A stretch of DNA of 37,815 nt, taken from Candidatus Zhuqueibacterota bacterium (GTDB lineage Bacteria > Zhuqueibacterota > Zhuqueibacteria > Zhuqueibacterales > Geothermadaptataceae). The position numbers and the translations under genes were made by a program. Below are positions 10,355 to 26,105 of this stretch, in pieces; within the stretch, counting starts at the first letter, position 1; each line of letters opens with the position of its first letter. The stretch lies in contig JAUZRQ010000130.1 in NCBI GenBank assembly GCA_030950365.1, positions 1 through 37,815 of the forward strand. The letters run 5' to 3'. A model generated the notes under the pieces. The model was not told the origin of the DNA and searched no databases. It saw nothing but the letters and a program-made list of their open reading frames with translations.

Positions 10355-12991
10355 TCAATCCGGCATTTCCAGAATACCAGCACGCTCCACCGGGTAACAT
10401 AAAAACAACTTGGGCTCTAGGTTGCGCGGCTTATAAAATTGCTGGTTCAGCATCCGGGCGCAGGGTTGAATCGCTTCCTTTTGCAGCAAAATCATGGCGC
10501 TGCCGCCCAGTCCCGCGCCGGCAATCTGCGCGCCCAGCACGCCCGGCACGCTCTGCGCAATATCCACAATATGATCCACCTCCGGAATGCTGCAGCGGTA
10601 CGCGCCGGATTGCAGGTACAGCGACGCTTCATCCGATTCGCTCTCCGCCAGCTCAATGAGCCGCTGCAGCTCGCGGTCACCGTACCGCCGCTCAAAGCGG
10701 CGATTCTCGCTGCCCTGCCAGGCACTCACGCGGTCACCATCATGCGAGATGCGCATCAGCCGCCCCAGGGTGGCAAAATCGCGATCCATCAGCGCATTGG
10801 CGAATCGCCGGCTGCGCTCCATTTCGCTGAGCCCAAACATCACCACATCGCGCACTGGAAATGCTTGCAGCTCTCCCTCGGGATGATGGCCAATGAAATG
10901 CGCCCAGATATCGTCAAACTGTTTTTTCACCTGCTCGGCCGACAGGCTTTCTGGCAGCATGGCCAACCGGCGGTAAAATTCGGCCAACGGCAGTTGCAAT
11001 TGCAGCGGATGCAAATCGCGCAGGCTATGGAACGGGCTGCTCAGCTCGGGAAAATTGCGTTCGAACCAGCGCAGCGCGATGTGATAGCACGCCACCCGCT
11101 GATTGAACAGCAATCGGGCGCTGGCGCTTTTCTCCGCCGGCTTGCCCGAATAAGCCACCAAAATGGCCAATTCCTCAGGCCAGTCCACATGCTGCATCAC
11201 ATGCAGCGGGTCGAACTCGATCAGCGACACTTTTTCCCGCTGCGCCAGCAACATGGCCGCGTGATCGGAGGTGCCGCCGCGGGTGCCCACGAACCACTCG
11301 GCCTCGCCGCAAAGCCGCGCCAGGTCTTGCACGTTGATGGGCAGTTGATTGACCCGCACCGTGGCCAGAGCTGCCGCGACTAAAAGCGCGCTCGATGAAC
11401 TCAAGCCAGCCGCCACCGGAATGTTGCCGCCCACCAGGATATCCATGCCTTTCAGCTTGCGCCCGGGGAACTGCTTTTGCAAGCGCAGAACCGCCCCGCG
11501 GATATAGTGCGACCAGTCGCCGCGCGTAGCTTCGATCGCCCGCCGCACGAACGGGATGTTCAAAAACGAGTCCCACGACTCCTGATGCAAAAACGCATCG
11601 AACTCGTCCAGGTTGAATTCATGGGAACCGTATTGCCGCTGGAACAGATTGTGCAGCCGAATGAGGCGGTCGTCGCGCTGCCGGGCCAGAAGAAAAATCT
11701 CCCGGTTGATGGCCAGGGTGTTGCAGGGCCCGCCCTGATGGTCGATGTGGCGGCCCATAAGATTGATGCGCGCCGGCGCGCGGCTGATCACCACTGGCAC
11801 GTTGCCGAAAACCTCGCGGAATCTGTCCAGGCAGGTGCGCAGCAGAAACAGATTTTTTTCGCTGAGGGTTTTCTCGATGCCAAACAGCCGATTGAGCCAG
11901 CGCTCGAGCCGGCCGTTCTTCGCCAGGAAATTCTGCCAGTCGGATACCCGCGGCCGGCTCTCCGGACCGGCTTTTGCGTCAGGCGCTTCCGCGCCACCGG
12001 CGCCGGGCTCCGTTTCGGCCAGCCGCTCCTCGATCCGCTGCAATTCCTCCTGCGTATTGAACGCCATCACTTCGTCTTCGGACTCGGTTTTCACCGGTAC
12101 CAGCTTCGCGCCCTGCTGCGCCAGAATATTGATGATGTCGGTCAAATATTCCTCATTCTGTGCATTTTCCGCGCGGATTTGCTTCAGCGCTTTTTGCAGC
12201 ACCGCGCTCTTGATGAGATACACCGACAGATTCACCCACTGGCTTTTTTCCACCTCGGCGCCGGTGATTTGCCGGCCATCGGACAGCGACAGCAGCCGAT
12301 CCTCCGGCGAGAAATAGCGCGTCAGCAGGTCATGACTCAGGGAGTGTCCCTTTTTCAGCATGTCGTACAACTCGCCCAGCGCCAGCGCGATTTTCTCTTC
12401 CGGCCCCACAAACTCCCGGGCAAGCGCCAGCGCCCGATCAGGCTCCATCACGCCGCCACGATCGGTTTGCGCAAAAAACGCCGCCAGCAGTCGGCTGCGC
12501 CCGGCGTCGAATTTTTCGATGCTGCCAACCGGTTGGCCTTCGAGCGAAAAAATGATGCGCCCGGCCGTGGGCATCCATTCCTTTTTGCCGATCATGAACG
12601 CCAGATCGGCTTTTTGTTTTTCAAATGCATGCACCAGCCGTTTGAGCGCGGCGGGCTGGATGATTTTATCGCCAGGGAGCACCAGCACCGGGCCGTCGTA
12701 ATCGAGCAGGCGCAGCGTCGAAAAGCCGACCTTCGCGGCATGACCGGTGCCGCGCTGTTCGCGCTGGAAGGCGTACACGCAGTTTTCATACGCACTTGCC
12801 ACGGTAGACATAACCTGCTCCGCCTGCACGCCCACAACGATCACGTGCCGCTGAATGCCTGCCGTTTCCAGCGCCTCTAAAAGACGAAGGATAGCGGGCT
12901 TTCCAAGAACCGGCACGCACACTTTGGCCTGCCCGGGCATGCGCATGCGGGTGCTTTTTCCGGCGGCAAGAATGATGGAAACAACCTTCAT
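10355..12991 (-). CDS. Bifunctional GlmU-like nucleotidyltransferase / GHMP sugar kinase
   Basis: An 878-residue fusion predicted to phosphorylate a free sugar at C1 and then convert the sugar-1-phosphate to an NDP-sugar. Residues 1-320 resemble the uridylyltransferase half of GlmU: LAAGKSTRM (8-16), AKVCVPVLGKP, REQRGTGHA, LPGDKI and EEYLTDIINIL (280-290). The GlmU left-handed-helix acetyltransferase domain is absent. After an Ala/Glu/Pro linker (325-350), residues 375-878 form a galactokinase-type GHMP kinase: APARINLMGRHIDHQGG (405-421), the ATP loop VAAGLSSSSA (526-535), GTRGGTSDH near 569-577 with the likely catalytic Asp, and GAQIAGAGLGGSAM near the end. The domain order matches bifunctional fucokinase/GDP-fucose pyrophosphorylases, but the first domain differs. 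The substrate is not determinable; a hexose or N-acetylhexosamine is the best guess. Confidence 0.88.
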   Translation of the reverse strand: MKVVSIILAAGKSTRMRMPGQAKVCVPVLGKPAILRLLEALETAGIQRHVIVVGVQAEQVMSTVASAYENCVYAFQREQRGTGHAAKVGFSTLRLLDYDGPVLVLPGDKIIQPAALKRLVHAFEKQKADLAFMIGKKEWMPTAGRIIFSLEGQPVGSIEKFDAGRSRLLAAFFAQTDRGGVMEPDRALALAREFVGPEEKIALALGELYDMLKKGHSLSHDLLTRYFSPEDRLLSLSDGRQITGAEVEKSQWVNLSVYLIKSAVLQKALKQIRAENAQNEEYLTDIINILAQQGAKLVPVKTESEDEVMAFNTQEELQRIEERLAETEPGAGGAEAPDAKAGPESRPRVSDWQNFLAKNGRLERWLNRLFGIEKTLSEKNLFLLRTCLDRFREVFGNVPVVISRAPARINLMGRHIDHQGGPCNTLAINREIFLLARQRDDRLIRLHNLFQRQYGSHEFNLDEFDAFLHQESWDSFLNIPFVRRAIEATRGDWSHYIRGAVLRLQKQFPGRKLKGMDILVGGNIPVAAGLSSSSALLVAAALATVRVNQLPINVQDLARLCGEAEWFVGTRGGTSDHAAMLLAQREKVSLIEFDPLHVMQHVDWPEELAILVAYSGKPAEKSASARLLFNQRVACYHIALRWFERNFPELSSPFHSLRDLHPLQLQLPLAEFYRRLAMLPESLSAEQVKKQFDDIWAHFIGHHPEGELQAFPVRDVVMFGLSEMERSRRFANALMDRDFATLGRLMRISHDGDRVSAWQGSENRRFERRYGDRELQRLIELAESESDEASLYLQSGAYRCSIPEVDHIVDIAQSVPGVLGAQIAGAGLGGSAMILLQKEAIQPCARMLNQQFYKPRNLEPKLFLCYPVERAGILEMPD

Positions 12992-14217
12992 ACGTCGTTA
13001 CACGTCTCGTTTTTATGGGTGATGATCCAGATTGCTCTGTGGATTCCGTCAGCCTGGATAGCAATGGCCCGGCCCCGCGGGTTGCAGCAGTCGCCAGAGA
13101 AGCTCTCTTTCTGTCCGAGCGGCGCGATCACGAAGAAGGCCGGGCCGCTCAAGGCGCATGCGAGGATTGGCCAACCGGCTGCCTCCGGCTCCGCTGCCGC
13201 TTCAGGCTGAATTAAAATAGTAAAAACTTCCGGCTCCATGTGCAAGCAGTTTTTGAGTAAGTTTTAAAAAAATAATTTTTTGCGACCGGCTGACCATAAC
13301 TATTCAGTCTGAAACATGAAATCATCTATTAAGTTCCAAAAGAAATAGCGCCCGACTTCCGTACATGGCTCTTTGAAGTCATTCCCTTGACCATACCAAT
13401 GAATAACAAGTGAGAGGCGAAGGTCAACAAAGATACCTGAACAAGTACGGCTGAACAGATCAAACCATTGCAGCGGGATGCCTTTTGTCGCCAGCGGATT
13501 AAATTCCACTGCAAATGAGTTACTGTTATAATGGCTCTATGTCATTTGGTATTGGTATGGGTCGTTCCTCGACAGGGTCAACAGGATCGACCGGATGGGA
13601 TTGAGACTTTGCTCTGCAACGGGTAGATGGTTCAATAGAGAAGCTTTTCACTTATATCCTGTAAATCATGAAATGGGTTCTAAGGTCTGACAACAAAAGA
13701 GATTCCCGTCCGGCATTGTCGCCTTCGAAAAGTTCATTGGGAACATCGTTGAACCTGAAACATTCACAAGCAGATTTGTAGAGCAGCACAGATCGTATCT
13801 TGATTTGAACAGAAACATGGCCGAAGTGTCTGGGAAACCTACTTTTCAGATATTGCAATTACGCTTACGCGCAGGGTTTATTTGGTCATCAACCGGGGTT
13901 ACAGGCCGAGAGGTCTTCACGCTGCTTTCGGCGGGGAATTGCAGTTTTCAAATTCTACGTGAAGAAGCATCTTGTTGCATCCTGCAAGAGACAGAGCTGC
14001 AGATGAACCACCCTGGATGATGTTCGAATCGGATCGACAGGATGATTCGCATTCATGGCGATTCACCCATTTTTGCCATGATTTTTTCCTGTTTATCCTG
14101 TAAATCCTGTCAACCCATGAGCAAGTACTTCATACAATTCACCATAGAGGCTCAAGTTCAATATTATTAGACCTGAATCGTTTGCAATCCGTCCCATCCA
14201 ATTATGGAGGCCAAATC
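12992..14217. other. Gene-poor, AT-richer intergenic region
   Basis: About 1.2 kb without a gene I can support. Several 60-70-codon frames occur (13300-13509 minus, 13652-13858 minus, 13805-14020 plus), but none has a recognisable domain, good ribosome site or typical codon use. The part from about 13260 onward is visibly AT-richer than the flanking genes. It carries an arm motif TAACTATTCAG at 13297-13307 and an inverted relative CTGAATCG at 14173-14180. Phrases built on AACAGGAT and TCCTGTAAAT occur at about 13570, 13655, 14035 and 14090. It may be a decayed element. Confidence 0.45.
14138..14167 (+). promoter_or_regulatory. Possible promoter of the DUF3179 gene
   Basis: TTCACC (14138-14143) and TATTAT (14162-14167) are separated by 18 bases. 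Each hexamer departs from consensus, so this is a weak sigma70-type match. It lies about 50 bases upstream of the chosen start codon, which itself has a strong GGAGG ribosome site at about 14206-14210. Confidence 0.25.
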
Positions 14218-15216
14218 ATGAGACGGCGATCTGTATCCGTGGTTCTTGTTTTAATACTCATGTCCATTTCTGGCATGGTTCGGCCAGGCCGGGCGCAGGA
14301 GTTGCCCGCGGCCTATCAGCAGCTTCTGCCGCGCGGCACCATTCCGGCCATCGTTGCACCGCGCTATGTGCCCGCCGACAGTGCCGACATCCGTGACGAC
14401 ACCTGGGTGCTTGGCGTGGTGATCAACGCCCAGGCTCGAGCCTATAGCCTGAATCTATTGAACCATCACGAAATTGTGAACGACCGGATCGGCGACACGG
14501 CCTTCGCCGCCGTATGGTGACCGCTGGCCAATACCGCCGTCGTGTACGGCCGAACTTATGAAGGCAAAGAGCTGACGTTCGAACCTTCTGGTGGACTGAT
14601 GCACGCTGCGCTGGTGATGCAGGACCGCGAAACCGACAGCTACTGGTCCATCATGACTGGCGATGTGATTGCTGGCCCGCTGAAAGGCACGTCGTTGCGG
14701 GAGCTGCCGATGGCGCAGAAATTGCAATGGAATGACTGGAAAAAACGCCATCCGAACACCCTGGTGCTCTCAGTGAACGGCCGCGAGGACATGCCGCGAA
14801 ATGCGTATGACAACTACTTCCGGTCGGAAGAAGGCTTTCGCGGCATGCAGGCGCGGGATCGTCGCCTGAAAACCAAAGAACCGGTGTTCGCGTTTCAGCT
14901 CGGCGAGGCCAAATACGCCGTACCGTTCAACGCGATCGAAAACGGCAAGACCTTCACTATTGGCGATACACACCTGTTTTTGTGGCGGCCGCCGCGCGCG
15001 CAGTTCTTTTTCTCTACCATCGCTTACCGCTCCAAAGGTTCTGGCTTCGAGCGCGAGGACGGTCGCTGGCGGCATCCGGCCTCAGGATGCGCGTTCAACT
15101 TGGAACACGGGGAGTTCATCGGCGGGCGATCCGGCTGTCCGGAGCGCTTGCAGGGTTTCGACACGTTCTGGTATATCTGGAGCTTGACGCATCCGGATAC
15201 AAAAATTTTAAAATAA
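14218..15216 (+). CDS. DUF3179 protein with in-frame TGA (candidate selenoprotein)
   Basis: A 332-codon gene whose only internal stop is TGA at codon 101 (14518-14520). The frame is continuous on both sides: HHEIVNDRIGDTAFAAVW, TGA, then PLANTAVVYGRTYEGK. From memory of the DUF3179 family, this segment is normally HEIVND...(T/W)(Y/W)CPL, so the TGA sits exactly on the conserved Cys. Downstream, MQDRETDSYWSIMTGDVIAG and GPLKGTSLRELP are also family-typical, and the protein runs to a normal end. A signal peptide (VVLVLILMSISG) suggests export. GGAGG seven bases before ATG 14218 fixes the start. Either TGA encodes selenocysteine or the gene is a fresh nonsense mutant or contains an assembly error. 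The rest of the gene shows no decay. The family's function is unknown. Confidence 0.75.
14536..14550 (+). promoter_or_regulatory. Candidate bacterial SECIS hairpin
   Basis: A perfect five-base-pair stem GCCGT / ACGGC (14536-14540 with 14546-14550) closes the five-base loop CGTGT. The loop begins 20 bases after the TGA at 14518-14520. Bacterial SECIS elements lie just 3' of the UGA, with an apical loop roughly 16-37 bases away and a G among the first two loop bases; here the second loop base is G, followed by T. The lower stem is poor, and an alternative GGCC/GGCC pairing competes. Five-pair stems are common by chance in GC-rich coding sequence, so this only supports the Sec reading. Confidence 0.4.

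Positions 15217-22502: not shown

Positions 22503-26105
<3,603 letters not shown>

Follow-up and report, generated by a model that had tools for sequence, protein, structure and literature searches.

A DUF3179 gene with an in-frame TGA codon in a Candidatus Zhuqueibacterota genome very probably encodes a selenoprotein

The stretch of DNA analysed here, referred to as the window, comprises 37,815 nucleotides of contig JAUZRQ010000130.1 (assembly GCA_030950365.1, Candidatus Zhuqueibacterota bacterium) and contains a DUF3179 gene whose reading frame is interrupted by a TGA codon (Table 1). The question that it raises is whether this codon is a lesion in an ordinary gene, is read as a standard amino acid, or specifies selenocysteine (Sec), as had been proposed in a preliminary description made from the sequence alone. 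The sequence bears out the description of the frame as otherwise intact: it has 332 codons, the TGA at codon 101 is the single internal stop, the terminal codon is TAA, and the sequence GGAGG lies a few bases 5' of the ATG. At the local base composition, a run of 331 random codons would have no more than one internal stop with a probability of approximately 1e-4. Ordinary bacterial translation cuts the gene into two ORFs of 112 and 224 residues; translated with TGA as U, the frame matches DUF3179 (PF11376) with 204.3 bits (E 3.6e-60) over positions 2–292 of the 292-position profile, against a curated cut-off of 27 bits, which makes the product a whole-domain member of the family.

Table 1. Coordinates of the DUF3179 gene and of its observed and predicted features in the window
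Feature	Position	Strand	Basis
Shine-Dalgarno-like TGGAGGC ahead of ATG	14205..14211	+	sequence
Probable DUF3179 selenoprotein gene	14218..15216	+	332 residues, Sec at 101, TAA stop
Predicted export signal peptide, MRRRSVSVVLVLILMSISGMVRPGRAQ	14218..14298	+	read by eye from sequence
First repeat, residues ~62-185, bearing H84-E85 and Sec101; weak Rieske-like fold match	14401..14772	+	hhalign of halves; VIA-align Z up to 6.8
Codon 101, TGA, taken as selenocysteine	14518..14520	+	shares column with family Cys
SECIS-like hairpin, stem 14534-14539/14547-14552, loop TCGTGTA 14540-14546	14534..14552	+	covariation, frozen synonymous codons
Second repeat, degenerate, residues ~217-332	14866..15213	+	hhalign of halves

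A search for DUF3179 in the source genome and 98 others yielded numerous genes that have a single internal TGA. When 67 rows from the source genome and related genomes were aligned with MAFFT, the column of codon 101 held TGA in 36 rows (drawn from the source genome itself and 16 related genomes), Cys in 24 and Ser in one; in a survey of named-species genomes (84 rows) the same column holds 51 TGA, 26 Cys and four Ser, the two TGA sets being overlapping. A carrier of the TGA form that is in culture is Acanthopleuribacter pedis (L136; site TTW-U-PLANT). The TGA thus does fall on a Cys conserved in the family, as the preliminary description had supposed, and homologues carry either Cys or TGA at exactly this position. 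One detail departs from the Cys-Pro-Leu motif that it had named: the window protein reads U-P-L-A, and most Cys forms add a Cys or Thr after CPL. All three DUF3179 genes of the source genome have TGA in this column. The other two copies (on contigs C75 and C9) encode short, single-repeat proteins with lipoprotein-like signals and the motif VAVAY-U-PL, and comparison of the three proteins with NCBIfam gave no match.

Genes of the TGA form also share a conserved element immediately downstream of the codon. Among the 36 TGA genes, the eight codon columns of the whole gene with the strongest freezing of synonymous sites are those at −1, +1 and +5 to +10 relative to the TGA, and no comparable freezing was seen at those columns in the 24 Cys genes. 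A hairpin can be drawn there with a stem formed by columns 17–22 and 30–35 (counting the T of TGA as 1) and a 7 nt loop that usually ends in CGUGUA. Across the 36 TGA rows 92.6% of stem cells are paired, four of the six pairs show double (compensatory) changes, and none of 500 shuffles reached as high a covariation score; the same columns of the 24 Cys genes are 44.4% paired, which is the shuffle level, and show no covariation. RNAalifold recovers the inner four pairs unaided, and in the window itself five of the six pairs are formed. A model of the hairpin (R1) run against the source genome found the three DUF3179 copies, which belong to its training set, and nothing else below E 0.5, and a search of the whole window against Rfam at gathering thresholds gave no match. 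Free energy of the hairpin was dropped as a test for a SECIS, as TGA genes scored no better than Cys genes. Taken over the aligned genes, there is strong support for the view that this putative element behaves like a bacterial in-frame SECIS.

These observations bear on the simplest alternative, that the gene is an ordinary Cys-type gene carrying a nonsense mutation or a sequencing error. The TGA is indeed only one base away from TGC or TGT, yet TGA recurs in the same column across many phyla in independent assemblies, and in the three paralogues of the source genome, and the covarying hairpin lies beside it. Moreover, the ratio of dN to dS in comparison with the closest row of the tree (L100) is approximately 0.19 on both sides of the codon (0.28/1.46 before, 0.37/1.93 after), indicating that the segment 3' of the TGA is translated and under purifying selection. 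Such a lesion, which the preliminary description had kept in reserve, is excluded in practice by the recurrence of the TGA and the covarying hairpin, and we regard it as extremely improbable.

It is also conceivable that UGA specifies a different amino acid, such as Trp or Cys, through an altered genetic code or a suppressor tRNA, and UGA is read as Trp or Gly in some bacteria. However, in nine genes around the DUF3179 gene (6640 codons) TGG occurs 123 times and TGA is never internal, and four of the nine terminate with it, so TGA acts here as a stop in the usual way and does not generally encode Trp; in addition, the residue that aligns with the TGA is Cys, not Trp, and the genome has a true tRNA-Sec and SelB. 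Together these points leave reassignment of the codon with a very slight probability. Two gene fusions were seen on the reverse strand of the window: at 22503–26105 a single chain of 1200 residues joins a 2-oxoglutarate dehydrogenase E1 to a 2-oxoacid dehydrogenase acyltransferase domain at the N-terminus, and the 878-residue chain at 10355–12991 combines a nucleotidyltransferase domain and a galactokinase-like GHMP kinase. A mechanical comparison of ORFs for a conserved gene neighbourhood recognized none besides DUF3179 itself, although some smaller clusters of ORFs did recur.

The tRNA-Sec, with a TCA (UCA) anticodon, is located on contig C6 of the source genome (C6:84828–84922, L001), and SelB lies on this contig too, at a distance of approximately 6 kb. 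SelD (L090, C136:893–1816) has a TGA of its own at the catalytic site (SCAGUASKIG) and is the selenoprotein form. The expectation that the genome should contain the Sec machinery therefore holds for tRNA-Sec, SelB and SelD; two models did not find SelA in the source assembly (95% complete). As 74 of the 99 genomes searched have a SelA match (70 above the cut-off), including a genome of the same genus (G001), the missing SelA is likely to be a gap in the assembly. Among the 17 genomes with TGA-type DUF3179, tRNA-Sec, SelA or SelB was found above the cut-off in 16. The exception (G064, 98% complete, same phylum) has four TGA-type genes (L040, L060, L062 and L071), and no tRNA-Sec, SelA or SelB was found in it; possibly the contig with the sel genes is missing or decoding has been lost. 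Two genomes (G024 and G086) that have neither SelA nor SelB above the cut-off, nor a clear tRNA-Sec, contain Cys forms only. In the KSB1 genomes G043 and G034 a TGA-type DUF3179 gene lies 1–2 kb from tRNA-Sec. A published survey of KSB1 reports selC as absent (PMC9012183); contrary to this, tRNA-Sec was found here in the source genome and in KSB1 genomes (also L103 and L112).

With TGA at 36 and 51 loci, a covarying hairpin and Sec machinery in the genome, the reading proposed in the preliminary description is well supported, and we consider it very probable, from comparison of sequences, that this is an intact selenoprotein gene of DUF3179 (PF11376) in which UGA 101 encodes Sec. SelB and the Sec-tRNA (anticodon UCA) would read the codon, guided by the small SECIS hairpin within the coding sequence, the loop of which would begin approximately 20 nt past the UGA. 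If this is correct, selenoprotein genes in the source genome number at least four, namely the three DUF3179 genes and SelD.

On a tree of the DUF3179 rows, the Sec, Cys and Ser states require five changes. The clade of the window protein, marked by the motif UPLANTAVVY, has 41 rows (40 Sec, one Ser and no Cys) and spans KSB1, Calditrichota, Acidobacteriota, Gammaproteobacteria, Planctomycetota, Krumholzibacteriota and Latescibacterota; the closest row to the window protein is L100, from a Calditrichaeota genome, with 62% identity. The sister clade is that of the anammox bacteria, in which Scalindua and Brocadiaceae have Cys, and Anammoxibacter has Sec. At position +3 from Sec the window protein has Ala, which departs from the published UxxC/T motif, and in this it resembles most of the Sec rows examined, which have Ala, Val or Ile there; in the named survey, with the window protein included, the Sec rows have 42 Ala, nine Cys and one Thr. 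Elsewhere in the family, five proteins (L042, G010:C743; L084, G013:C392; L085, G011:C73; L086, G024:C352; L087, G024:C33) have rearranged DUF3179 segments, the segment of profile positions ~80–111 (GFGVSGLLFENNLVMWDRE) being N-terminal, ahead of 1–76 and 122–292. This order resembles a natural partial circular permutation, and the Cys motif CPLTGTG is retained.

The protein is predicted to be exported by its N-terminal signal peptide, and many DUF3179 relatives have lipoprotein-type signals. Comparison of its first and second halves by hhalign aligned 121 columns with E 8e-23, showing an internal duplication, and the exported protein is predicted to fold as two tandem repeats with Sec in the first only, the second having no Sec or Cys at the site equivalent to 101. 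In 52 aligned proteins E85, residue 101 and G153 are invariant. An AlphaFold2 model built from 52 aligned sequences has a pLDDT of 94.6 (32 from the single sequence alone). Foldseek gave no match at E 0.001, nor did a search of the PDB by sequence profile give one. With VIA-align, however, residues ~70–174 had Rieske or Rieske-like proteins in all of the top seven rows (Z 5.4–6.8; next row 4.3), the best reaching Z 6.8 over 91 residues, although a Z below 8 may reflect a common arrangement. Comparison of profiles with Rieske families gave no significant match. The proposal that Sec101 corresponds to the cysteine of Rieske box II was rejected, since Sec lies well ahead of the box in the structural ranges and comparison of profiles yielded nothing.

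Our current working hypothesis, which draws on the position of Sec in the family and its conservation, is that Sec101, which shares its repeat with the invariant Glu85, acts outside the cytoplasm as a selenolate redox nucleophile that would reduce, for example, peroxide or another oxidized substrate and would then be reset by an outside thiol; we favour this role by a modest margin of confidence. An outside thiol is invoked because +3 is neither Cys nor Thr and because the one further pair of Cys in the protein looks structural: in relatives this pair is mostly kept or lost jointly, which suggests that it forms a structural disulfide and is not the partner of Sec. A different role for the selenoprotein would be that Sec101, set on a Rieske-like beta scaffold, binds a metal or other ligand (e.g. 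copper, mercury or arsenic) and is not a redox catalyst. The missing partner at +3 in this subfamily fits that role too, as do the invariant Glu85 of the Sec-bearing repeat, the weak fold match to Rieske proteins and the Ser that replaces Sec in a few rows. Metal-binding roles of Sec are, however, rarer than redox roles, the Rieske cluster motif is missing and sequence profiles fail to match Rieske proteins, and we judge ligand binding to be rather unlikely. Returning to the clade as a whole, we would suggest only tentatively that its members are exported Sec-dependent enzymes built on a cluster-free Rieske-like scaffold, in which a lone selenol would be catalytic or metal-binding with no partner thiol; were this so, the UPLANTAVVY clade would be a type of selenoprotein whose chemistry has yet to be described.

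That DUF3179 is a selenoprotein family is already known, and the discovery at family level is not new: two reviews list the family among prokaryotic selenoproteins with the motif UxxC/T (PMC9312934, PMC13188914), and one of them (PMC13188914) refers for it to Zhang and Gladyshev 2007, on the Olavius algarvensis symbiont. What is new is a clade that is nearly all Sec, the usual lack of Cys or Thr at +3, the two tandem repeats and the weak Rieske-like match. To judge from sequences, the internal UGA very probably specifies Sec in dozens of relatives from many bacterial phyla as well, in a family predicted to be exported. The near-strict retention of Sec in a widespread clade, the predicted export and the absent partner thiol make the role of DUF3179 directly testable.

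Among known systems, the Rieske-type ferredoxins and NirD (4nbc, 5bok, 1fqt, 3c0d) are the best fold matches to the window protein, for which membership of that group is not claimed; Rieske proteins have the CxH...CxxH motif that binds the [2Fe-2S] cluster, whereas the window protein has no such motif. Cys-form DUF3179 proteins, such as those of Candidatus Scalindua (L137–L140), have the same domain and the same position of the motif (CPLANLAVVY as against UPLANTAVVY in the window protein); they differ in having Cys for Sec, and the 24 Cys genes tested, a set drawn from genomes other than Scalindua, showed no SECIS-like hairpin. The listed DUF3179 selenoproteins differ from the window protein in their motif, UxxC/T as against UPLA, but belong to the same Pfam family and share with it a Sec that replaces the conserved Cys ahead of Pro-Leu.
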